Source: Rhodoplanes sp. Z2-YC6860 (GTDB lineage: Bacteria; Pseudomonadota; Alphaproteobacteria; Rhizobiales; Xanthobacteraceae). From it: 64,000 bases of DNA. Under the pieces are notes generated by a model. It was not told where the DNA came from. It saw only the letters and a program-made list of their open reading frames with translations, and did not search any database. Made by a program: the position numbers and the translations under genes. This document shows positions 51,431 to 64,000 of the stretch, piece after piece; the first letter of the stretch is position 1; each line of letters begins with the position of its first letter. The stretch spans positions 4,176,029-4,240,028 of the forward strand of contig NZ_CP007440.1 in NCBI RefSeq assembly GCF_001579845.1, written 5' to 3'.

Positions 51431-51520
51431 GGATGGATGGCCGAGCGGTTTAAGGCACCGGTCTTGAAAACCGGCAGAGGGGCAACTCTCTCGTGGGTTC
51501 GAATCCCACTCCATCCGCCA
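51431..51520 (+). tRNA. tRNA-Ser (anticodon UGA)
   Basis: Acceptor GGATGGA pairs with TCCATCC (51510-51516). Discriminator G and encoded CCA end at 51520. The anticodon loop CTTGAAA lies in a CCGGT/ACCGG stem, giving TGA at 51465-51467. The T arm is GTGGG TTCGAAT CCCAC, and the long variable arm (GCAGAGGGGCAACTCTCTC region) is typical of serine tRNAs. The gene is intact and lies just left of a divergently placed integrase, making its 3' end the likely integration site. Confidence 0.96.
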
Positions 51521-51599
51521 GCAAAATATTGAAACAACAAACAACTTTCCTGCTTCGACATTCTTCGAGCGTGCGAACATAACCAGGACGCTCGGCATT

Positions 51600-51691: not shown

Positions 51692-52882
51692 TCAGAGCAG
51701 TGCGGCTTTTGACAGATCCGCTATCACCGCGGCTGCGTTGGTGTCTGCCTTTCGCGTTCGCTTTGCATAAGTCCGGAGCAGCACGGCCGGATCGTGGCCG
51801 CAGCGGGCTGCGACCACGTGTACCGGCACGCCCTTGTCCAGCAGGATGGTTTCATGACTTCCGCGCAGGTCATGGAAACGCAGCTTCGGGAAGCCGAGGC
51901 GGGCGGCGTTGCGGACAAACTCGTGCGTGATGACATGCGGCGCGCGCAAACGCGTCAAATCGATTGCCCCGTGGTCCGGAGCTCCGGGAAACATCAGCGC
52001 GCCTTCTGGCAAACGGACCAGAGAAAGGTCAACGTCGAGTCCGTCGGGCACGCCGGCCACGAGGCGTAAATGCTTCGCACGTTCAGCAACCAGGAGTGCC
52101 AGCAGGCCAGCGTCAATCTCTATTGTGCGGCGGCCGCGTGCCGTCTTCGGCTCCTTGACGCGGCGCCCGAACTTCTTCGTCTTCTCCAGCGCGCGCTCGA
52201 TCCGTAACGTTTTCTTCGCGGGATCCAAATCGGACCAACGTAGGGCAAGTATTTCGTTGCGGCGCGCGCCTGTGTAAGCCGCGATAGCGATGATTGGGTA
52301 AAGGGTCGAGTCCCGAAAGCCCTGAACGAGGTGTGCTAGCTGTTCTTCGTCGAGCACCTGCCCGTGGTTGCTTTCGCCAGGGGAGGGAAGTTTCTCGGCG
52401 CGATCAATTGGATTGGCGAAGATGATGCCCTTACGCGTCGCGGCACTCAGGCAAGCATTGAATACGGTGTGCACATGGTGGGCTGTGCGGGGAGCCATCG
52501 TGGGCTCGAGCTTTTCGTACAGCTTATCGACGTCCATCGAAGACAATTTCTGAATTTTCGTCGGACCCAGTGTCGGCACCACGTGGCAATTCAGAAGTTC
52601 GCTGTAGCGCTCGTGGGTTCGTGGACCGGCCTTCTTCTTTCGGCGGCCCGGCGCACCAATTGAAAGCCAATGCGCGATCCACTGGCCGACGGTCATCTGG
52701 TCCGGCTCAATATGTTCGCCGGTATCGCCGCTGCGAATTAGGCGACGGAGTTCAGTCTTGGCACCGGCTCGATTGCCGTGGAACGTTTTCGAGTAGCGCT
52801 TGCCGTTCAACCGATAGCGCAGGCGGAAGGTGTCCGGTCCGCGTTCATCAATGCCGCCGTCGCCGTGCTCTCGCCGCTTCAT
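51692..52882 (-). CDS. Tyrosine recombinase (phage integrase)
   Basis: 396 residues. An N-terminal arm-binding domain (SKTFHGNRAGAKTELRRLI) is followed by a core-binding SAM-like domain (about 63-150) and the catalytic domain. Active-site residues can be read: Arg207 (AYTGARRNE), His337-x-x-Arg340 (FHDLRG), His363 (RCGHDPAV) and nucleophile Tyr372 (LRTYAKR). It would integrate the element at the tRNA-Ser gene lying 170 bases from its 3' end. Its ATG overlaps the stop of the RHH protein gene (ATGA), so the two are expressed together. Confidence 0.93.
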   Translation of the reverse strand: MKRREHGDGGIDERGPDTFRLRYRLNGKRYSKTFHGNRAGAKTELRRLIRSGDTGEHIEPDQMTVGQWIAHWLSIGAPGRRKKKAGPRTHERYSELLNCHVVPTLGPTKIQKLSSMDVDKLYEKLEPTMAPRTAHHVHTVFNACLSAATRKGIIFANPIDRAEKLPSPGESNHGQVLDEEQLAHLVQGFRDSTLYPIIAIAAYTGARRNEILALRWSDLDPAKKTLRIERALEKTKKFGRRVKEPKTARGRRTIEIDAGLLALLVAERAKHLRLVAGVPDGLDVDLSLVRLPEGALMFPGAPDHGAIDLTRLRAPHVITHEFVRNAARLGFPKLRFHDLRGSHETILLDKGVPVHVVAARCGHDPAVLLRTYAKRTRKADTNAAAVIADLSKAALL

Positions 52883-53463
52883 TTGCGTTCCGCCTTCTGT
52901 TTGGTAACCGCGCGAATCCTTGCAACGAGGTCGCTTCCTAGATCGCGTCGCAACTTGGGTGCGCGGGCTATCGCTGTCGCGCTCGTTGGCTCGTCGGATG
53001 CGATCTCCGCCAGGATGCCGTTGGCAATCCCCGTGCCCATGGCTCCTATCAAGGCTTGCACATCGATACCTTTGGCGGTGCCTTTGAACGCTGCTGGCAG
53101 CTCGACCGCACCCGGCGGCCGCAAAGCCTCAAAGATGTGCTGAGCGGCGGCTACCGCTTGACTGAAGGCGAAGGGCTCATCCCACCATTTTGCAGCCCTG
53201 CCGGCATCGAAGGTCGACGCGAAACCAGCGGAATATCCCGCGGCATTCATAGCTGCAGCGACGGCAAGTAAGCCCGGCACGAACGTCTGATCCGTATCGT
53301 CGGGGCTCGTTAGTGAGTTCTCCAGTCGCGCAATTATCTCTGCGGTCAGTGTTCGTCCGCTTGCCGCGCGGGCCGCATCCAGCCGCGCCCGAAGCTCGGG
53401 AGCCACGCGAAGATTGATCGGCGTAGTAGTCCGGCCGTCTGGACCTTTGGCTTTCTTCCCCAT
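52879..53463 (-). CDS. Arc-type RHH DNA-binding protein upstream of integrase
   Basis: 194 residues. The N-terminal 50 (GRTTTPINLRVAPELRARLDAARAASGRTLTAEIIARLENSL) form a ribbon-helix-helix of the Arc/CopG class. The remaining 140 are an Ala-rich helical domain of unknown role. It overlaps the integrase by four bases. Together with the divergent HTH gene it probably controls integrase expression or excision. A palindrome in the divergent region (53483-53502) is a candidate operator. Confidence 0.7.
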   Translation of the reverse strand: MGKKAKGPDGRTTTPINLRVAPELRARLDAARAASGRTLTAEIIARLENSLTSPDDTDQTFVPGLLAVAAAMNAAGYSAGFASTFDAGRAAKWWDEPFAFSQAVAAAQHIFEALRPPGAVELPAAFKGTAKGIDVQALIGAMGTGIANGILAEIASDEPTSATAIARAPKLRRDLGSDLVARIRAVTKQKAERK

Positions 53464-53606: not shown

Positions 53607-53795
53607 ATGGAAACCGAGCATGACGGAACGTCCAGTGAGGTGGTCTTGCAGCCTCATGTCTTGACGGTCGAGGAATGGGCGGCGCGCATGCGCATCAGCC
53701 GCACCGCCGCCTACGCTGCTATTAGGAACGGCGATGTGAAGGTGATCCGGATCGGCCGAACGATCCGAATTCCGAACAAGCCCGCGGCGGCTTAG
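53607..53795 (+). CDS. Excisionase-type helix-turn-helix protein
   Basis: 62 residues containing LTVEEWAARMRISRTAAYAAIRNGDVKVIRIGRTIRIP, the MerR/Xis-like winged helix of the excisionase family (DNA-binding HTH_17). It lies divergent from the integrase operon. GGAGG precedes ATG 53607 at a spacing of ten. Role is likely as excisionase or transcriptional control of the element; the family is secure. Confidence 0.8.
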   Translation: METEHDGTSSEVVLQPHVLTVEEWAARMRISRTAAYAAIRNGDVKVIRIGRTIRIPNKPAAA

Positions 53796-54114: not shown

Positions 54115-54177
54115 ACCGCGTTCCCACCAACCAAAAGAAAATGGCCGGGCGCCACGAAAGCGCACCGGCCAAGTTTG

Positions 54178-55266
54178 GTGAATGCAGTGCCGGAGATATC
54201 TGATCCGTCGAACGATTGCAACGCGGCGGACGTTTGCACGCCCATTTCCTACGCCGATCTCGGTCTCACCGAAGAAGAGGCCGCGCGCGCCGTCGCGACT
54301 GCTGCCGAATTGGCCGGCAAGAGTGATGCCGAAATCCATGAAATGGCGGCGGCGCAGGTGAACGCCATGGAGCGGCTGATGGAGTCGCTGGTCGATGAAC
54401 TTTATCAGGCTAGCCCCATAAAGCGCCGGAGGGCCACCAAGGTTGATGTCGAGGCTCGTCGCGCGGCCCTCTACTGCATCTTGAAAGAGATGAAGCCGAT
54501 GACGGTGCGGCAGGTCTACTACCAGGCGACCGTCCGTGGCGTCGTTGAGAAGACCGAGGCCGGTTACACCAAAGTGCAAACCGATCTGGTGCACATGCGC
54601 CGGACCGGCTGGGTGCCGTACCAGTGGCTCGCCGACAACACGAGGTGGCAACGCAAACCCAACACCTTCAACAACATTCAGGAAGCGCTCGAAGAGACGG
54701 CCCAATTCTATCGAAAGGCGTTGTGGTCGAACGTCGACGCCTATGTCGAGATCTGGCTCGAGAAGGACGCCCTGGCCGGCGTCGTCCTTCCGGTGACATC
54801 GAAGTATGACGTTCCTCTCATGGTGGCGCGCGGGTATGCGAGCTTGTCGTTCCTTCACAGCGCGGCCGAGGCAATCCGCGATCTGGATCGTCCCACCTAC
54901 ATCTACCACCTCGGCGACTTCGATCCGTCCGGAGTCAATGCCGGCGAAAAGATCGAACAGACGCTGAAGGAACTCGCGCCCGACTCGGAAATCCATTTCG
55001 AGCGGATCGCAGTGACCCCCGCTCAAATCGATATGTGGTGCCTCCCGACTCGCCCCACGAAGTCGTCAGATACGCGTTCAAAGAACTTCGGTGATGTGTC
55101 GGTCGAACTGGACGCGATTGCGCCGCAGGACTTGCGCGACATAGTCCAAGAGGTCATCGAACGACATCTGCCGCCACAGCAATTCGAGGTTCTGAAAGAA
55201 GCGGAGCGCAGCGAGCGTCTGCTGCTGTCAGCCTTCGTCAAACAGGCGGAGATGGGGAATGGCTGA
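54178..55266 (+). CDS. Topoisomerase VI A-subunit/Spo11-like protein of the prophage
   Basis: 362 residues. A DNA-cleavage-type region reads MTVRQVYYQATVRG, with Tyr115/Tyr116 in the position of the catalytic Tyr of the Spo11/TopoVIA T-x-R-x-x-Y-Y motif. A TOPRIM domain follows: EIWLEKDALAGVVL (Glu196) and YIYHLGDFDPSGVNAGEKIEQ with D248-x-D250 and Gly253. The order of 5Y-CAP-like domain then TOPRIM matches the type IIB topoisomerase A subunit and its mobile-element relatives (Mini-A type). No B-subunit (GHKL ATPase) gene is visible. Start codon is uncertain: GTG 54178, TTG 54175 or GTG 54187; numbering here starts from 54175. It precedes the initiator gene. Confidence 0.65.
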   Translation: MNAVPEISDPSNDCNAADVCTPISYADLGLTEEEAARAVATAAELAGKSDAEIHEMAAAQVNAMERLMESLVDELYQASPIKRRRATKVDVEARRAALYCILKEMKPMTVRQVYYQATVRGVVEKTEAGYTKVQTDLVHMRRTGWVPYQWLADNTRWQRKPNTFNNIQEALEETAQFYRKALWSNVDAYVEIWLEKDALAGVVLPVTSKYDVPLMVARGYASLSFLHSAAEAIRDLDRPTYIYHLGDFDPSGVNAGEKIEQTLKELAPDSEIHFERIAVTPAQIDMWCLPTRPTKSSDTRSKNFGDVSVELDAIAPQDLRDIVQEVIERHLPPQQFEVLKEAERSERLLLSAFVKQAEMGNG

Positions 55267-55295: not shown

Positions 55296-56078
55296 ATGGC
55301 AGATGATCATCGCTCCTCAGAAGAGCGGGCCTTCGACATCAGGAAAGCGCAGCTCCGGAGCTGCGCAGTGTTCGACGTGACGATGGTCCCGAGCCATCGT
55401 CTGATCGTCTTTACCGTGGCTGATCTCATCAACTTTCGTTTGGGCTACAGCTATCCGTCTCAAAAATATCTCAGCAACATTTTAGGCCTCAGCCTCCGCA
55501 CCGTGCGTGATGCCGGTAAGCCGTTGGCGCAATACTTCGACGTTGAAGTTGTCGGCCGGGCTCACCGCTACCATCCGCGATGGGCCGATATAGCGGCGAA
55601 ATATGCCGCTATTCAGTCTCGAACAGCGGCAAAACCTGCCGCTGTTCAGGAACCGACGGAGGCAAAATCCGCCCCTATCATCGCACTGACAGCGGCAAAA
55701 CCTGCCGCTGTCAGTCATGAAACAGAGGCAGATTTTTCCACGATAGCGGCAACTTCTTCCGCAAATAGCGGCAAAATCCGCCCCCTATCCTTCTATAATC
55801 CTACTAAAGATCCTGTGGTGTTGTTGAACGCCAAAGCTGGCGATCCGGATCAGCAGCGCTGGACTTTCGTCAAAAGCAGGCTGTCGAGCAACGTTTTCAA
55901 CCGGGTCGAGCTGATCCAGATTTGGGAAGACGAAGTGATGCTGCGGGCGCCATCGGCGCTGCTGCACTCGCGGATCGAGAACGAATTTCACAGTCAGCTT
56001 GCAATTGCCTGGGAGCGCCAACTCGGCTTCCCTGTGAAAATTGTCGTGCTCCCGCCGATGGCAGTGGCTGCCGAATGA
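55296..56078 (+). CDS. Replication initiator-like protein (wHTH plus DnaA-N-like domain)
   Basis: 260 residues. The N-terminal part (LIVFTVADLINFRLGYSYPSQKYLSNILGLSLRTVRDAGKPL, about 36-79) is a winged-helix domain as in phage initiators. Residues 98-163 are a low-complexity linker of 11-residue repeats (AAKPAAV, EAKSAPI, AAKPAAV) encoded by palindromic 33-bp units. The C-terminal domain (DQQRWTFVKSRLSSNVFNRVELIQIWEDEVMLRAPSALLHSRIENEFHSQL) resembles the DnaA N-terminal domain that recruits helicase. The arrangement parallels lambda O, which binds iterons inside its own gene. No helicase loader gene is obvious nearby. Confidence 0.65.
   Translation: MADDHRSSEERAFDIRKAQLRSCAVFDVTMVPSHRLIVFTVADLINFRLGYSYPSQKYLSNILGLSLRTVRDAGKPLAQYFDVEVVGRAHRYHPRWADIAAKYAAIQSRTAAKPAAVQEPTEAKSAPIIALTAAKPAAVSHETEADFSTIAATSSANSGKIRPLSFYNPTKDPVVLLNAKAGDPDQQRWTFVKSRLSSNVFNRVELIQIWEDEVMLRAPSALLHSRIENEFHSQLAIAWERQLGFPVKIVVLPPMAVAAE
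55590..55788 (+). other. Iteron array: probable intragenic replication origin
   Basis: Palindromic units with 7-base central spacers lie at exact 33-bp intervals, centred at 55601, 55634, 55667 and 55700, with weaker copies near 55733, 55753 and 55776. The best are CTGACAGCGGC-N7-GCCGCTGTCAG (55686-55714), GAACAGCGGC-N7-GCCGCTGTTC (55621-55647) and ATAGCGGC-N7-GCCGCTAT (55590-55612). The spacer is AAAACCT in the two best copies. A lower-GC stretch with CTATAATCC follows at 55790-55812. The 33-bp spacing is about three helical turns and three 11-residue codon blocks. Lambda has the same layout in gene O. Confidence 0.65.
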
Positions 56079-56503
56079 GCTCTCCTCCGACAGCGACACC
56101 GTCACAACTGCCCGACCAGATCACCGAAGCGGTAGTTCGCCTCGAGCCGTGGGCAACCGAGTTTGCTCGTGAGGTCTTGGTCAACGGCCTGCGGCGTCCA
56201 GCGCCACAGCGCCGCTTGCGTCGTCTCCGCCTGCGTGCACTCGCTGAGGGGTTGGCACGAGATTTGGCGCCGATCAGCGAGCGCGGATTGGCAGCTTTGC
56301 TGTCCGATGCAGGCCGGCATCTGCAGGCGGGTCACAGCAAATTGCCGGATCGCGGGGTCCTCGCGCGCCTCGACCATGCCGATCGGCTCGAACTCACTGA
56401 AAGCTTGCGCGCGATTCTAGCTCTGTCCGAGAGCAATTGGCCGAAGTTCGGCGGAATGCGCCGCATTCTCAAAGGGATAGCTGGCCACTTTTCCCCCGAT
56501 TGA
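56075..56503 (+). CDS. Unknown phage protein
   Basis: 142 residues, helical and Arg-rich (LRRPAPQRRLRRLRLRALAEGLARDL), ending in LSESNWPKFGGMRRILKGIAGHFSPD. The ATG overlaps the initiator stop (ATGA), so it is translated with it. The position right after an initiator is where phages often encode a helicase loader or primase partner, but no Walker motif is present. I do not recognise a family. Confidence 0.55.
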   Translation: MSSPPTATPSQLPDQITEAVVRLEPWATEFAREVLVNGLRRPAPQRRLRRLRLRALAEGLARDLAPISERGLAALLSDAGRHLQAGHSKLPDRGVLARLDHADRLELTESLRAILALSESNWPKFGGMRRILKGIAGHFSPD

Positions 56504-57878: not shown

Positions 57879-58180
57879 GCGACGCCGGTGAAAAATCGAC
57901 TTTGGCTCGCACTGCAGAATTGCAGGCGCAACTCGCCGACATCTTCGTTTGCCACACGGCAGACGATGCAGATCTCCGCGCCTTCTTTGGGGAGCGTCTG
58001 CGGATGATCGAGGACCGGCTCGCCGCCCTTGATGGCGGAAACGATGGCGAGGCATCCATGCGTGCGGCGCTTTACGCGGTCAACGTGCAGCGAATTTCGG
58101 CTGGCGGACAGCAGCTTCGGTTCAAGGTGCAGGGGGCCGGGCTCGACTGGGACAAGAACCGGAAGGGCAGGGTTCGCTGA
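57875..58180 (+). CDS. Unknown phage protein
   Basis: 101 residues, acidic and helical at the N-terminus (LARTAELQAQLADIFVCHTADDADLRAFFGERLRMIEDRLAAL), then a strand-rich tail ending in GLDWDKNRKGRVR. No family recognised. Overlaps the upstream gene by four bases and the prohead-protease gene by one base (TGATG). Confidence 0.55.
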   Translation: MSDAGEKSTLARTAELQAQLADIFVCHTADDADLRAFFGERLRMIEDRLAALDGGNDGEASMRAALYAVNVQRISAGGQQLRFKVQGAGLDWDKNRKGRVR

Positions 58181-58929
58181 TGAGTGCGATCGAGCTCCGC
58201 GGTTACGCGATACCCTTCAACACAACGATCTTCATCAACGGCAACTATGAGCGGGTGCTGCCCGGAGCTTTCGACGCGATGCTGGGCGACGACATCGCCT
58301 TGGCCAGCCGCAACATCGATGTGCGCGTCTTCTCACACGACGAGAATGCGGAGCGCATCGGCGATACCAAATCATCCACGCTGAGCCTCTTCTCCGACTC
58401 GGTCGGGCTGGGCTTCTCGGTGACGGTGGACGCGAGCGCATCGCCGTGGGGGTACATCTCGGCAATGACGCGCCGGTCGTGTCCGTCCGATCAATGCTCC
58501 GTCAACCTTGTGATTGAAGCGAGCAGGAAGAGCACGCATCTCGGCGAACCGCTGATTTCCGTCACCAAGGCATCCGTCGAACATATCGCGATCGTCAGTT
58601 CTGCCGCGTACGGCAAGGCAACCGGTGTGTGGCCGGTGCACTGCATCGATCATCCCGCGGCACCTTCGAGGTTGCAAAAAATGGCATCACAGTGGGAAGC
58701 CGGAAGCCGGCGGTGGTCCGAGGTGCAGGCGCAACGTCGGCGCGAGCGCGCGAGCCATTCGGCGCATAGTGGGTCTGGTCATGTCCCGCCGGCGGTTGCC
58801 GCACGACTCGCTTCCCAGCAACAGCACTTTACGAAAATGCGCCGAATGATGATCGATGCCCGCGTTCCATTCATCATGAGCCATGTGGCATGGACGAAGG
58901 CCGGCGGTTTCAAGGGCTTGGGGCGATGA
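58180..58929 (+). CDS. HK97-type prohead protease-like protein
   Basis: 249 residues. IELRGYAIPFNTTIFINGNYERVLPGAFDAML (5-35), FSHDENAERIGDT (His53), GLGFSVTVDASASPWGYIS, a Ser-containing segment near 100-108, and VEHIAIVSSAAYG (Glu134) follow the U35 prohead protease order, so His/Ser catalysis is plausible. The C-terminal 80 residues are a basic extension (RRWSEVQAQRRRERASH) without family similarity. These proteases cleave scaffold or capsid proteins during head maturation. Unusually, no portal or capsid gene follows; the next genes are an unknown and the tape measure. Confidence 0.65.
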   Translation: MSAIELRGYAIPFNTTIFINGNYERVLPGAFDAMLGDDIALASRNIDVRVFSHDENAERIGDTKSSTLSLFSDSVGLGFSVTVDASASPWGYISAMTRRSCPSDQCSVNLVIEASRKSTHLGEPLISVTKASVEHIAIVSSAAYGKATGVWPVHCIDHPAAPSRLQKMASQWEAGSRRWSEVQAQRRRERASHSAHSGSGHVPPAVAARLASQQQHFTKMRRMMIDARVPFIMSHVAWTKAGGFKGLGR

Positions 58930-59366: not shown

Positions 59367-62366
59367 ATGACAGACACCGTCGACAAAATCATCATCCAGT
59401 CGTCGACCCAGGGCGTCACGCAGAGCGCCAACGAGGTCCACAAGCTCTCGGACGAGATGCAGGGCCTCACGGTCTCTGCTTCGAACGTCGAGAAGTCGAC
59501 GACCTCGGTCGAGGGGAAGTTCGCCTCGCTGGAGCGCCGCTTCAGCACCACCGCCGGCAACGCCGCGCAGTACGAGAAGATTCAGACCACGGTTAATCGC
59601 GCGGTCGCGCAGAACCCCGAATTGCAGGATCGCGCCAACGCGGTGATGCAAGCTGCCGCTGCCAAGTACGGCACCGCCGGCGCGGCGGCAAAGGCGCTTG
59701 GGGACGCTCACGTTGGACTGTCCGCCCAGGGCCAGGCTGCCCTTCATTCAATTCGGTCGGTGACCGAGCAAATCACGTTGGGAATTCCAATCACCCAAGC
59801 GCTCACCGGGCAGATGAGCCACTTGGCTTACGCTGCTTCAGGCCAGGGCGGCATCACAGGTGCATTCAGCGAAGCAGCAAGCATCTTTCCGCGCTTGGTG
59901 GCTGGGGCGGCCTCGATGGTCTCGCCGCTCACGGTCACGGTGGCCACCATGGTGGCGCTGACGACGGCGACGGCGGCGGCGGCATTGCAATACGACAAGC
60001 TGCAGACATCGTCGCAGCGCGCGTTGATCGGCGCCGGACAGCGCAGCGGTACCACGATCAGCGACCTCAATCAGTTCACCAGCCAGAATTCCGGCCTTTC
60101 CGGCTCTGGACTTTCGAGCAAGGAAGCCCGCGAACTGGGCGAGGATTTCACCAGGACCGGCGATATCGTCATCAGCCGGCTGCACGGCATGTCCGACGCA
60201 GTGGTCGGCTTTGCGAACCAGACCGGTTCGAGCATCGAAGAAGCTCGGAAGGCCATGGTGGCGTTTGCGGTTGATCCGCAGAAAGGCATGCAGGAGCTGG
60301 CCAAGACGTACGGCGAGTTCGATGCCGCCACGCGAAGGGCCGTGGATACACTTGTTATCGCCGGCGACAAGACGGGCGCATTCAACGTCATCACCGAGGC
60401 CTTGTCCGACAAGAGCAAGGCTGCGGCCCAGAACATGGGCGTGCTCGAGAAGGCGTATCGCTCGGTCGTCAATCTCCTCGCGACAGAGACTGTAAAGCCG
60501 AGCGGGCTAGAAGATCAGCTTGCGGCCGCTAAGGGGCGGTTGGCTGCCGCTCAGGACAATCCGTTTGGAGACGCAAAGGCGGCGGCCGAGGATGTCGAGA
60601 GACTTCAGGCCGCGATGGACAAGGTCAACGCGGCGCGGCCGGTTGCCGAGCTGAACAAGCTTTCGACTGAGGCGGACGCGGTCGATAAAGCGGTCATCTC
60701 GCAGATTGAGCAGATCGAGCAGCTCCGCGCGGAGCTTGCGAAACTTGATCGCGCCAAGGCGTCCGGCGCCAGCAGCAAATACGGCGCCGGCGTTGATGAT
60801 GCCGCTCGCACCGCGATCGAAAACCAGATTGCCGCACTCCAAGAGGCTCAGGGGCAATCGGAGCGCTACAACCAGCGCATTCAGCAAATCGGCGTGTCTT
60901 GGGGTGACGTGGGTCAGTCGACCGCAATGGCGCTCCAGGCGCAGCAGAACCAGTTGCCGGTTATCGAGGCGGTCGGCGGCGCGGCGAAGATGGCGGCGCA
61001 GTATGCAGCCGACTATGCGAACGCGATCGATCAAGGCAGAACGGCAACTGAGGCGACAGCGCTCGCGGCGAGCAATCTGCGAGCGGCACAGGCCCAGGCC
61101 AACTCCTCGGCGCAATCAACGCTCGCCTCGCTGCGAGATCAATATGCTGTTGCGAGCGCGTCAAACGTACAGGAACAAATCGCCGCGCAGGGCCAGGCGA
61201 CCTACAACGATTTAATACGGCAAGGAGTGGACGCGACCACGGCCCAGGCCGTCGCCGCTCAGCAGGTCGCAAACGCACAGGCATCAGTCTACCAGCAGAT
61301 GCAGAAGCAGGTCCGAGCATCGCAGGACGCGCTGGATCTGGCAAAGGCCTCCTCCGACTACGACCGGGCTCGCATCAACTCCGACATTGCCTATCGAAAG
61401 GCGATGGAAGGTGGAGCGACCGCTGCTCAAGCCGCGCAGATTTCAGTCAATACGATGATGACCGATCTTATCAATGCTCAGAAGGCCGCCGACGGCATGT
61501 CGGACGCGCTCGACCAGGCAGCCGCGTCAGGGAAAATCATCGGCGGCAACGAGGGGTCTTATGATCCCGGCTCTGCGTACAAGGCAGGATCGTTCGATGT
61601 CGCAGCCGGGCCGCGGCTTGGCAACGGCTACTCCAACGCGAGTTTTGCGGCCTTTCTTGCCGGTCAACGTGCGCCGAGCGCGCAGGACCTCATCACCAAC
61701 GCTCTGACAGGCGGCGTCAACGGCGCGATCGCGACGCTGACTGGCACCAACTTCCAAGGCGGCATCACGCGCGGCAGTACATTGCTCGGCGTGCCGTATG
61801 GCACACAGTTCCCCGGCCGCGGCGACATCGGTTCTCAGAGCGACATCGACAACGCAGTCGACAGCCTGTTTAACCTGAAGCTCCTGCAGGCCGGCAAAAG
61901 CAATTCAGCAAAGGCATCGATCTACCAGGACCAGATCAACTACCTACAGCAGCAGCCGCAGACCATCGAGGTTTTGACGAAGATCGCGCAGCTCACCAAC
62001 TCGCTGAACGATCTGAAGGACAGCACGGACGCGCTCACGGATGCCGAAAAGGCGTCGCTCAATCCGCTCTACAGCGGCAAGGGTGCGCTCGCAGTCGGCT
62101 ACTACAAGGCGGCGAACGGCTTCGAGGGTGTGGCGCAAGGACCGCCTGTCGGCGACAAAATCCCATTCCATGTGATGGTCAACGGCGGCGAGCATATCAA
62201 GATCACGCCGGCCGGGCAGAAGCCAGCAGCGCCGACGTCGAACGACAACAGCAAGACGGTCACCGTCAATCAGACTTTCAACTTCAGCGGTTCACAGTCG
62301 AAAAATCGGAGAAACCGCCGACAGATCGACCAGGGCTTCGGGCAGACGATGGCGTCGCTGTCGTGA
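59367..62366 (+). CDS. Phage tail length tape measure protein
   Basis: 999 residues. It is helical and rich in Ala, Gln and Ser, with heptad-like stretches (about 400-560 and 570-720) and short hydrophobic segments near residues 180-205. The C-terminal NPLYSGKGALAVGYYKAANGFEGVAQGPPVGDKIPFHVMVNGGEHIKITPAGQKP and VTVNQTFNFSG are typical of tape measure proteins in lambda-like tails (TIGR01541 type). It spans the tail tube and sets its length; at this length a tail of roughly 150 nm is expected from the usual relation, which is inference. No tail-tube or chaperone genes flank it. Confidence 0.8.
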   Translation: MTDTVDKIIIQSSTQGVTQSANEVHKLSDEMQGLTVSASNVEKSTTSVEGKFASLERRFSTTAGNAAQYEKIQTTVNRAVAQNPELQDRANAVMQAAAAKYGTAGAAAKALGDAHVGLSAQGQAALHSIRSVTEQITLGIPITQALTGQMSHLAYAASGQGGITGAFSEAASIFPRLVAGAASMVSPLTVTVATMVALTTATAAAALQYDKLQTSSQRALIGAGQRSGTTISDLNQFTSQNSGLSGSGLSSKEARELGEDFTRTGDIVISRLHGMSDAVVGFANQTGSSIEEARKAMVAFAVDPQKGMQELAKTYGEFDAATRRAVDTLVIAGDKTGAFNVITEALSDKSKAAAQNMGVLEKAYRSVVNLLATETVKPSGLEDQLAAAKGRLAAAQDNPFGDAKAAAEDVERLQAAMDKVNAARPVAELNKLSTEADAVDKAVISQIEQIEQLRAELAKLDRAKASGASSKYGAGVDDAARTAIENQIAALQEAQGQSERYNQRIQQIGVSWGDVGQSTAMALQAQQNQLPVIEAVGGAAKMAAQYAADYANAIDQGRTATEATALAASNLRAAQAQANSSAQSTLASLRDQYAVASASNVQEQIAAQGQATYNDLIRQGVDATTAQAVAAQQVANAQASVYQQMQKQVRASQDALDLAKASSDYDRARINSDIAYRKAMEGGATAAQAAQISVNTMMTDLINAQKAADGMSDALDQAAASGKIIGGNEGSYDPGSAYKAGSFDVAAGPRLGNGYSNASFAAFLAGQRAPSAQDLITNALTGGVNGAIATLTGTNFQGGITRGSTLLGVPYGTQFPGRGDIGSQSDIDNAVDSLFNLKLLQAGKSNSAKASIYQDQINYLQQQPQTIEVLTKIAQLTNSLNDLKDSTDALTDAEKASLNPLYSGKGALAVGYYKAANGFEGVAQGPPVGDKIPFHVMVNGGEHIKITPAGQKPAAPTSNDNSKTVTVNQTFNFSGSQSKNRRNRRQIDQGFGQTMASLS

Positions 62367-62959: not shown

Positions 62960-63130
62960 TCAAACTGCAGCAGCCTCACGACGCTCATACCGCCTCAGCA
63001 ACCGGTCGGTCTCGGCGGCGGTCTCCTCGTCGCTTTTTGGGCTCAACGGCCGGAGCGCCGGCCGCTCCATTTGCTCTTTGAGAATTTCCGCCATTCGGCG
63101 TCGGATCTCGTCCGAGGTCAGCTGTACCAT
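62960..63130 (-). CDS. Small charged protein overlapping the Clp-fold protease 3' end
   Basis: 56 residues starting VQLTSDEIRRRMAEILKEQMERPAL, highly charged and helical, ending RLLRRYERREAAAV. AGGAG lies six bases before ATG 63130, the best Shine-Dalgarno in this area. It overlaps the last 146 bases of the larger protease gene in a different frame, so both may be real. The protease tail encoded there is low-complexity and may be dispensable. Confidence 0.6.
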   Translation of the reverse strand: MVQLTSDEIRRRMAEILKEQMERPALRPLSPKSDEETAAETDRLLRRYERREAAAV

Positions 63131-63998
63131 TTTCGGCTCCTGGCGCGTTGAGAGAATCCTTAGCACGCACAGATAACGCCTGAAAGACGAATTCGCTGCC
63201 CTGGAACCTAGAAATTCTGCCCAGGGCGGCCACAATCGCCTCTTCCTCCGCGTCAGCTACCCGTACGCGGAGAAAGAGCGTTTCCGCCTCTTGCTGGTCT
63301 ATGACAAAAGAGTGTGAAGAATACGTTTCCGACAGCAGGCGTAGCGTATCTGCCCGCAAATTCTGGGATTTCAGGGACAGCCGTCGCCCATAATCTGTGC
63401 CGATCCTCATTGATCGCGCCCGCGCACCAACGTCTTCGGGATCGATTCGGGCAAATACAGGGGCGTACAGCTGCGCCACAAAGTCGCCAGCCGCCTTCGT
63501 GGCTGAGGCAAAAGACAGCTGGCCATTGTTCGCCTGGATGTACTCTTTGACCATTTCGAAGAACTTTTCGACGGCTCTGGCCTCCAGAGTGTTCAGCGAA
63601 TCTTGGATTGTCAGGCCTGACGAGAGGGCATCAAACTTATCGACCTTGCTCAATTGGATATCGAGCGGCCCCAACTCGCCGTACGGGGTGAACGCTAGTT
63701 CATGTGCTCCGACCGCGATGAGGGTGCCGGCGCTTTTGCATTTCCCCGCGACAATCACGGTGAAGTGCTCGTATTTCTCCTGAAAATAGCGAGTGATCTT
63801 GTAGGCGGCGTCTGGATTCCCACCATTGGTGGTCAAGAAAAGACGAGCCTTCTTCCTGCCGGACCGATGGGAGGCAATTGCTTCGATGCAGGTCAAACAG
63901 CGAGGCTGCTCGATGCTGCCGTTATAGACATAGACATCAGCGTCAATTTTCGCGGCTGCAGCTTGTGCGGCGGTCAGCGCTGCTTGCGGAATGGGCAT
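62985..63998 (-). CDS. Clp/SppA-fold serine protease (SDH/PF01972-like)
   Basis: 337 residues. LFLTTNGGNPDAAYKITRYFQEKYEHFTVIVAGKCKSAGTLIAVGAHELAFTPYGELGPLDIQL is the Clp/crotonase fold: NGG, the nucleophile Ser89 in KCKSAGT, and GPLDIQ after it, as in SppA or the serine-dehydrogenase-proteinase family. No signal peptide, so it is cytoplasmic. The C-terminal 60 residues are Gly/Ala/Arg-rich low complexity. It is read on the opposite strand to phage structural genes, as for accessory (moron) cargo. ATG 63998 lies at the edge, so the true start may be beyond the window. Confidence 0.7.
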   Translation of the reverse strand: MPIPQAALTAAQAAAAKIDADVYVYNGSIEQPRCLTCIEAIASHRSGRKKARLFLTTNGGNPDAAYKITRYFQEKYEHFTVIVAGKCKSAGTLIAVGAHELAFTPYGELGPLDIQLSKVDKFDALSSGLTIQDSLNTLEARAVEKFFEMVKEYIQANNGQLSFASATKAAGDFVAQLYAPVFARIDPEDVGARARSMRIGTDYGRRLSLKSQNLRADTLRLLSETYSSHSFVIDQQEAETLFLRVRVADAEEEAIVAALGRISRFQGSEFVFQALSVRAKDSLNAPGAENGTADLGRDPTPNGGNSQRANGAAGAPAVEPKKRRGDRRRDRPVAEAV

Positions 63999-64000
63999 GT

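Follow-up and report, generated by a model that had tools for sequence, protein, structure and literature searches.

A Mini-A protein of the topoisomerase VI A subunit type in an integrated element of Rhodoplanes, and its possible part in the start of element replication

We analysed a stretch of 64,000 nucleotides (the window) from the chromosome of the alphaproteobacterium Rhodoplanes sp. Z2-YC6860, in which an integrated element carries a gene for a relative of the DNA-cleaving A subunit of topoisomerase VI (TopoVI-A) and of Spo11. By its sequence, the encoded protein is Mini-A, a further member of a known family and not a new kind. We propose, with a rough probability of 0.55, that Mini-A makes reversible breaks which help the element to start replication, the replication step being the part that we infer. 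The founding description of Mini-A is reportedly that of Takahashi et al. in 2020. The family is described in PMC8185306, PMC11302465 and PMC7614492 (each available in part). The data on gene context, the conservation of an Arg/Glu pair and the element of 17.4 kb are additions made here, and these may partly be known already.

The sequence-only reading had taken the protein for a TopoVI-A/Spo11-like protein of the Mini-A type, and database searches bear this out. In a PHROGs search, residues 107-356 matched phrog_6247 (‘DNA topoisomerase’) at E 4e-55. In tblastn searches the protein showed 32% identity (E 5e-27) to a protein of Pseudomonas phage NP1, a phage named as a Mini-A carrier in a figure legend of PMC7614492 (in part), and 30% identity (E 2e-23) to an archaeal plasmid protein annotated ‘Topo Mini-A’. 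Pfam recognised no domain in the window protein at E 1, neither TP6A_N nor any ATPase domain; TP6A_N was matched by one of the 23 members of the close-relative set A1 (E 0.72), and an NCBIfam search gave nothing usable. At a tblastn threshold of E ≤ 0.01, matches were present in 70 of 50,697 phage records, some of the 70 being one phage entered twice (GenBank and RefSeq), and in 54 of 72,556 plasmid records; identity stayed under 60% throughout. Eighteen genome loci with 46-73% identity included Bradyrhizobium, Mesorhizobium, Planctomycetes and Acidobacteria MAGs, and further close relatives were located on viral contigs. In the order of the host, at least 10 of 397 sampled genomes (host included) have a Mini-A match, whereas among 11 genomes of the host genus the single match is the host itself. 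Such proteins had been called rare in bacteria; they are indeed uncommon, yet widespread.

Streptomyces accounts for 39 of the 54 plasmid records with a match. Two linear plasmids of more than 230 kb from Streptomyces and Kitasatospora (L057, L058) carry a Mini-A that keeps its Tyr, and Mini-A is also found on plasmids of 8.8 kb and 15 kb (L037, L055), with no annotated replication initiator in the stretch shown. On a Planctomycetales contig (L018:10237-10358), the Mini-A gene contains a near-exact tandem duplication of 61 bp and is split into two frames.

Inspection of the window sequence and its open reading frames showed that the Mini-A frame is open over its whole length and contains the three motifs MTVRQVYYQ, EIWLEKDALAG and LGDFDPSGVNAG in the TopoVI-A order, as had been claimed. 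The start codon and residue numbers required correction. The numbers given earlier for the catalytic residues (Tyr115/116, Glu196, Asp248 and Asp250) fit a start at TTG 54175 and not the GTG 54178 reported with them; counted from GTG 54178, as done here, the residues are Tyr114/Tyr115, Glu195, Asp247 and Asp249. The GTG start is itself doubtful, because 13 of the 20 relatives with an assessable start have a longest possible frame that begins only at residues 64-77 of the window protein. Residues 1-73 have no counterpart upstream of the Mini-A gene in 11 relatives, except for a poor, stop-containing match in L020 (E 0.013), and AGGTGA lies five bases 5' of ATG 54367; therefore the protein probably starts at this ATG and has 299 residues (Table 1). 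A test for an N-terminal gene fusion led us to drop that idea.

Table 1. Features of the Mini-A gene and the integrated element (window coordinates; residue numbers counted from GTG 54178).
Feature	Position	Strand	Remarks
tRNA-Ser	51431-51520		followed by integrase
attL, 59 bp of tRNA-Ser 3' part	51463..51521	+	exact second copy 68768-68826 (window numbering, past window end)
Tyrosine integrase	51692..52882	-	PF00589 E 1.8e-12; phrog_1 E 1.9e-51
Ribbon-helix-helix (Arc/TraY-like) protein	52879..53463	-	Pfam and PHROGs
Small HTH_17 protein, excisionase/regulator-like	53607..53795	+	PF12728 E 1.3e-6; phrog_10045 E 1.4e-6
Small ORF, 61 aa	53929..54114	+	no PHROG match; longer reading from 53848 without Pfam match
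Mini-A longer frames	54178-55266 (GTG) or 54175-55266 (TTG)	+	open frame
Mini-A (TopoVI-A/Spo11-like) gene	54367..55266	+	probable reading from ATG 54367, 299 aa
R111 to Q116 codons (R-Q-V-Y-Y-Q)	54508..54525	+	Arg111 possible clasp residue; Tyr115 predicted catalytic
Glu195 codon, TOPRIM metal-binding Glu	54760..54762	+	44/44 aligned sequences
Asp247-Phe-Asp249 codons, TOPRIM D-x-D	54916..54924	+	Asp247 44/44, Asp249 43/44
Glu310 codon, invariant distal Glu	55105..55107	+	44/44; proposed Top6A Glu342 equivalent, by order
Initiator-like gene, N-terminal winged HTH, holds repeats	55296..56078	+	PF13730 E 7e-4 (under curated cut-off)
Six iteron-like palindromic repeats, type GCGGCAAAACCTGCCGC	55589..55784	.	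candidate origin inside initiator-like gene
142-aa gene	56075..56503	+	ATGA overlap with initiator-like stop; no Pfam/PHROG match at E 1
S78-type prohead protease	58180..58929	+	PF04586 E 1.5e-11
Tail tape measure protein	59367..62366	+	PF06791 E 2e-18; phrog_24 E 8.6e-19
SDH/ClpP-type protease gene, right part of element	62985-64000	-	phrog_21683 E 7.7e-59

Sequence searches stayed short of significance for TopoVI-A: neither the single protein nor the profile A1 of close relatives matched a TopoVI entry of the PDB, the best match of a wider profile (A2) was 1d3y at E 0.33 only, and hhalign against the true TopoVI-A of locus L047 returned a short match at E 0.014. Comparison of structures was therefore needed. 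The AlphaFold model of Mini-A (23 sequences; pLDDT 81.9, pTM 0.54) is predicted to have the winged helix and TOPRIM fold of TopoVI-A. Foldseek placed the model with TopoVI-A, as the sequence-only reading had anticipated: all five PDB chains found at E ≤ 1e-3 are TopoVI-A (best 1d3y, E 2.9e-5; TM-scores of about 0.3 and large rmsd), and no Spo11 chain was among the matches at this threshold. When 34 Mini-A rows (33 used) were compared with three TopoVI-A sequences by hhalign, the global mode produced a meaningless alignment and the local mode alone was informative, with low HH probability. It gave two co-linear matches, one placing Tyr115 on the second Tyr of the TopoVI-A motif REAYY (P 0.028, probability 2%), the other placing the segment from GDFDPSG to Asp298 on that from DCDPYG to Asp (P 3e-4, probability 38%).

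The predicted active site is strongly conserved. Among 44 distinct aligned sequences, the window's included, Glu195, Asp247 and Glu310 are kept in all and Asp249 in 43, while Tyr115 and Arg111 are kept in each of the 41 sequences that cover those columns (the rows L006, L016 and L052 fall short of the Tyr column). The alignment drew on 16 phage and plasmid stretches (L037-L040, L045, L046, L048-L055, L057, L058), L056 being opened and left out, and omitted the partial, split or very distant L017, L018, L026, L027, L033, L035 and L036, as well as L028. The column of the first Tyr (Tyr114) is variable, with Y, F, S, W, H or G, and the catalytic Tyr of mouse SPO11 is likewise the second of a pair (PMC11922746, in part). 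The Mini-A of the archaeal virus HCIV-1 (L046) has Asn for the second Asp of the D-x-D, the sole such row of the 44; yeast Spo11 tolerates loss of the equivalent of this Asp (PMC11922746, in part).

The invariant Tyr also bears on the possibility that Mini-A is a TOPRIM nuclease of the JetD/GajA type, directed in defence or host attack against the DNA of rivals or of the host. Some weak Pfam matches within A1 point in that direction (seven of its 23 members match DUF2399, best E 0.0018, five DUF7281 and one JetD_C), related TOPRIM dimers serve Wadjet/MksBEFG and Gabija (PMC13040014, in part), and in Bacteroides phage BKO1-3 an annotated Smc/AAA ATPase lies six genes upstream of Mini-A. However, JetD is described as having no catalytic Tyr (PMC10586767, in part), all five structural matches at the above threshold are TopoVI-A, and no SMC-type gene was recognised among the genes of the window element that were scanned. 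We regard such a role as quite improbable and set it aside because the catalytic Tyr is invariant.

In Top6A of M. mazei, a clasp formed by Glu342 and by an Arg placed four residues ahead of the Tyr restrains the Tyr (PMC13040014, in part). Arg111 has exactly this spacing to Tyr115, and Glu310, judged from its order, its invariance and the same paper, would be the equivalent of Glu342; the two residues may thus be the counterpart of the Top6A "clasp".

The absence of an adjoining B subunit, mentioned in the sequence-only reading, extends to the whole host genome, in which neither TP6A_N nor Topo-VIb_trans had a match, while both searches were positive in 4 of 14 control genomes. The host genome thus offered no recognisable partner for an A2B2 holoenzyme of the TopoVI type with its GHKL ATPase B subunit, which makes it unlikely that a TopoVI-like holoenzyme drives strand passage with ATP. 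A true TopoVI A gene overlapping a probable B gene was seen in one of 398 sampled genomes of the host phylum, belonging to the order of the host (L047:790-3134).

The mobile element in which Mini-A lies is about 17.4 kb long. It has an integrase gene and is bounded by an exact direct repeat of 59 bp from the 3' part of tRNA-Ser, the copies of which are 17.3 kb apart. The gene had been assigned to a prophage; the element is integrated and phage-like, but the virion genes recognised among those scanned are few (S78 protease and tape measure), and the scan of its genes, several small ORFs excepted, revealed no terminase, portal or capsid gene. The element may be a satellite or a prophage that has worn down. 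In its right part lies a short piece of an ATP-dependent DNA ligase (L041:16351-16734). The scarcity of virion genes and the ligase fragment would also suit a degenerate element with Mini-A as a decayed passenger that no longer acts, but the Mini-A frame is open and has all catalytic residues, its relatives on separate contigs have 40-70% identity, and the att repeats are exact over 59 bp, which makes this the least probable of the alternatives considered here.

Mini-A might instead be an accessory factor for excision or integration that alters DNA topology at the att sites. An HTH_17 gene lies upstream of Mini-A in the window and among the upstream genes of L004, L012 and L013, and in Listeria phage LWP01 the Mini-A gene is overlapped by one annotated as excisionase. 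However, HTH_17 was not found in 7 of the 10 upstream genes scanned, and members of the family occur in phage and plasmid stretches (parts of records only) without an annotated integrase; we think this role improbable.

The sequence-only reading had put Mini-A directly before an initiator and an origin. The gene that follows does encode an initiator-like protein with a winged HTH and contains six repeats, which form a candidate origin, but its assignment to an initiator family is weak (phrog_270 E 0.16; for Pfam see Table 1). The repeats are spaced by 33, 33, 33, 54 and 22 nt, and a stricter scan found four copies against at most two in eight shuffles. All five relatives with initiator-like genes that were examined (L009, L018, L021, L024, L028) have three or four copies inside the gene, and none of nine control stretches has three. 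Three or more copies occur in the 1.5 kb downstream of Mini-A in 8 of 38 loci (window, L009, L018, L020, L021, L024, L028, L071). No Mini-A gene and no upstream stretch of these 38 loci reached that number, two of the upstream stretches being too short for scoring. The shuffle set of one locus in 38, L009, reached three copies (in one of its eight shuffles), and the L009 repeats are therefore not significant by themselves.

Two broader claims were rejected. An iteron-type origin is not a general companion of Mini-A, as downstream repeats were present in 1 of the 13 loci found later (L071), and none are seen in L060, despite its clear initiator (phrog_270 E 6.5e-16). Nor is the initiator conserved together with Mini-A: no homologue of the initiator-like protein of the window was found in the loci searched at E 1e-4 or in phages (tblastn E 0.01), and in pairwise comparisons it matched the L028 initiator over 35 aa (34% identity) and those of L021 and L024 not at all.

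Replication genes of several unrelated kinds do lie near Mini-A in relatives. Of 39 close relatives other than the window, 23 have an initiator, primase or helicase gene within two same-strand genes of Mini-A, namely 16 of the 26 loci L002-L026 and L028 and 7 of the 13 found later (L060, L063, L067, L069, L070, L073, L076). The count takes in 13 of 26 later loci, the other 13 being left out (eight repeat earlier loci, four have less than 38% identity, one is cut), and it excludes L027, L029-L036 and every phage or plasmid record; some of the loci are near kin (L020/L021, L006/L017, L010/L012) and so not independent. The neighbours are initiator-like (L009, L018, L020, L021, L028), of the VapE/primase-helicase type (L003, L005, L010, L012, L013), or contain DUF927 (L006, L017), DUF3631 (L008), DUF3987 (L002), Prim-Pol (L016) or a polymerase/primase (L025), the partners in L010, L017 and L020 being assigned by similarity to a scanned neighbour. 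In the remaining 16 of the 39, the genes scanned include no strong replication gene at this distance: 12 have nothing counted (L004, L007, L011, L014, L015, L019, L022, L026, and of the later loci L071, L072, L074, L077), two have Sak4 only (L023, L062) and two a weak candidate (L066, and L024, whose family match is weak although it has repeats). The helicase-like gene of L019 runs in the opposite direction and was left out of the count. The count shows an association and not an enrichment, because mostly the larger neighbours were scanned, with no random-gene control or background rate for phage early regions. Among the more distant phage records opened, some have replication or repair genes close by, others neighbours of nucleotide metabolism or uncharacterised ones; two Streptomyces/Kitasatospora plasmids have no replication gene near Mini-A.

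Seven kinds of partner among 16 labelled rows require seven changes on the tree, against a minimum of six. The tree (24 rows) is poorly resolved, with 6 of 21 inner branches well supported, and frequent swapping of partners is unsupported.

A different division of labour is conceivable, in which Mini-A is a Spo11-like break maker whose double-strand breaks in the element DNA lead to recombination-dependent replication or concatemers. The Sak4-like annealing protein, two or three genes further on in L023 and L062, would fit such a role, as would phage NP1, where a Sak4-like protein follows Mini-A directly with a Cas4-type exonuclease and a ligase nearby, phage BKO1-3, where an exonuclease subunit of DNA polymerase lies directly upstream, and the partnerless cutting by mouse SPO11 (PMC11922746, in part). 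But no recombinase was recognised among the window-element genes scanned, and initiators, primases or helicases stand beside 23 of the 39 close relatives against Sak4 alone beside two; we consider this reading fairly unlikely.

The preferred reading, in which reversible breaks by Mini-A help the element to start replication, can be put as follows. Mini-A would be a stand-alone DNA-cleaving dimer of the TopoVI-A/Spo11 type, made up of a winged helix with the catalytic Tyr and a TOPRIM domain, and acting with no ATPase partner. Tyr115 of one subunit and Glu195, Asp247 and Asp249 of the other would make a reversible break with the protein on the 5' end, and the break would relax or open DNA at the origin of the element, thus aiding the start of replication, or resolution and segregation after excision. 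Nicking or relaxation of the origin, already suggested in the sequence-only reading, is something that we, too, infer. Because the TopoVI-B gate is missing, full ATP-driven strand passage is unlikely; the DNA would more probably swivel at a nick or be cut through both strands in a controlled way. In this context, mouse SPO11, which cuts without partners, also reseals nicks (PMC11922746, in part), and one Topo VIII relaxes DNA without ATP (PMC7614492, in part). Our literature search found no published activity or role of Mini-A, although other papers may give one, and in their available parts the reviews PMC7614492, PMC8185306 and PMC11302465 assign it none.

A more specific version, which we think unlikely, would make Mini-A an ATP-free origin factor that nicks or breaks the origin under the control of the element's own initiator or primase-helicase, with partners exchanged while Mini-A is kept, and with the Arg-Glu pair acting as the Top6A clasp that is freed by a replication protein instead of by TopoVI-B. 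A Mini-A clade beside short, recognisable replication modules would offer a small test system for the role of an orphan TopoVI-A, with a bearing on the origin of Spo11, a cleavage subunit that can act in the absence of its ATPase.

Compared with known systems, the window protein agrees with the Mini-A described from phages, archaeal viruses and plasmids (PMC8185306, PMC11302465 and PMC7614492, in part) in being like an A subunit without a B subunit, but its gene lies on a bacterial chromosome, within an integrated element; the closest relatives, at 45-73% identity, come from genome, MAG and viral contigs, and integrases related to that of the window are present in L005, L006 and L024. With Top6A, its top structural match, it shares the order of Tyr and DxD and the Arg four residues before the Tyr, whereas no B subunit is recognised for Mini-A, matching by sequence profiles alone is marginal, and those relatives that start near residues 64-77 lack the stretch that precedes the aligned core in TopoVI-A (in L047 about 74 residues). 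Spo11 has the same A-type cleavage module, which in mouse cuts without partners (PMC11922746, in part); the window protein differs in coming from a prokaryotic mobile element and in having no Spo11 match by Foldseek at E ≤ 1e-3. Wadjet nucleases (JetD/MksG) and DUF2399 proteins have a similar TopoVI-A-like TOPRIM, seen in the weak Pfam signals of A1, but a JetD nuclease lacks the Tyr (PMC10586767, in part) and is encoded with JetABC, and Mini-A shows neither mark, its Tyr being invariant and no SMC-type gene appearing among those scanned. Topo VIII carries its ATPase part within the same chain, whereas Pfam detects no ATPase domain in the window Mini-A. Topo VIII is likewise a type IIB relative on plasmids and integrated elements and is mostly homodimeric (PMC7614492, PMC8185306, both in part), and family-specific motifs of Mini-A, together with C-terminal differences from Topo VIII, are mentioned in PMC8185306 (in part).
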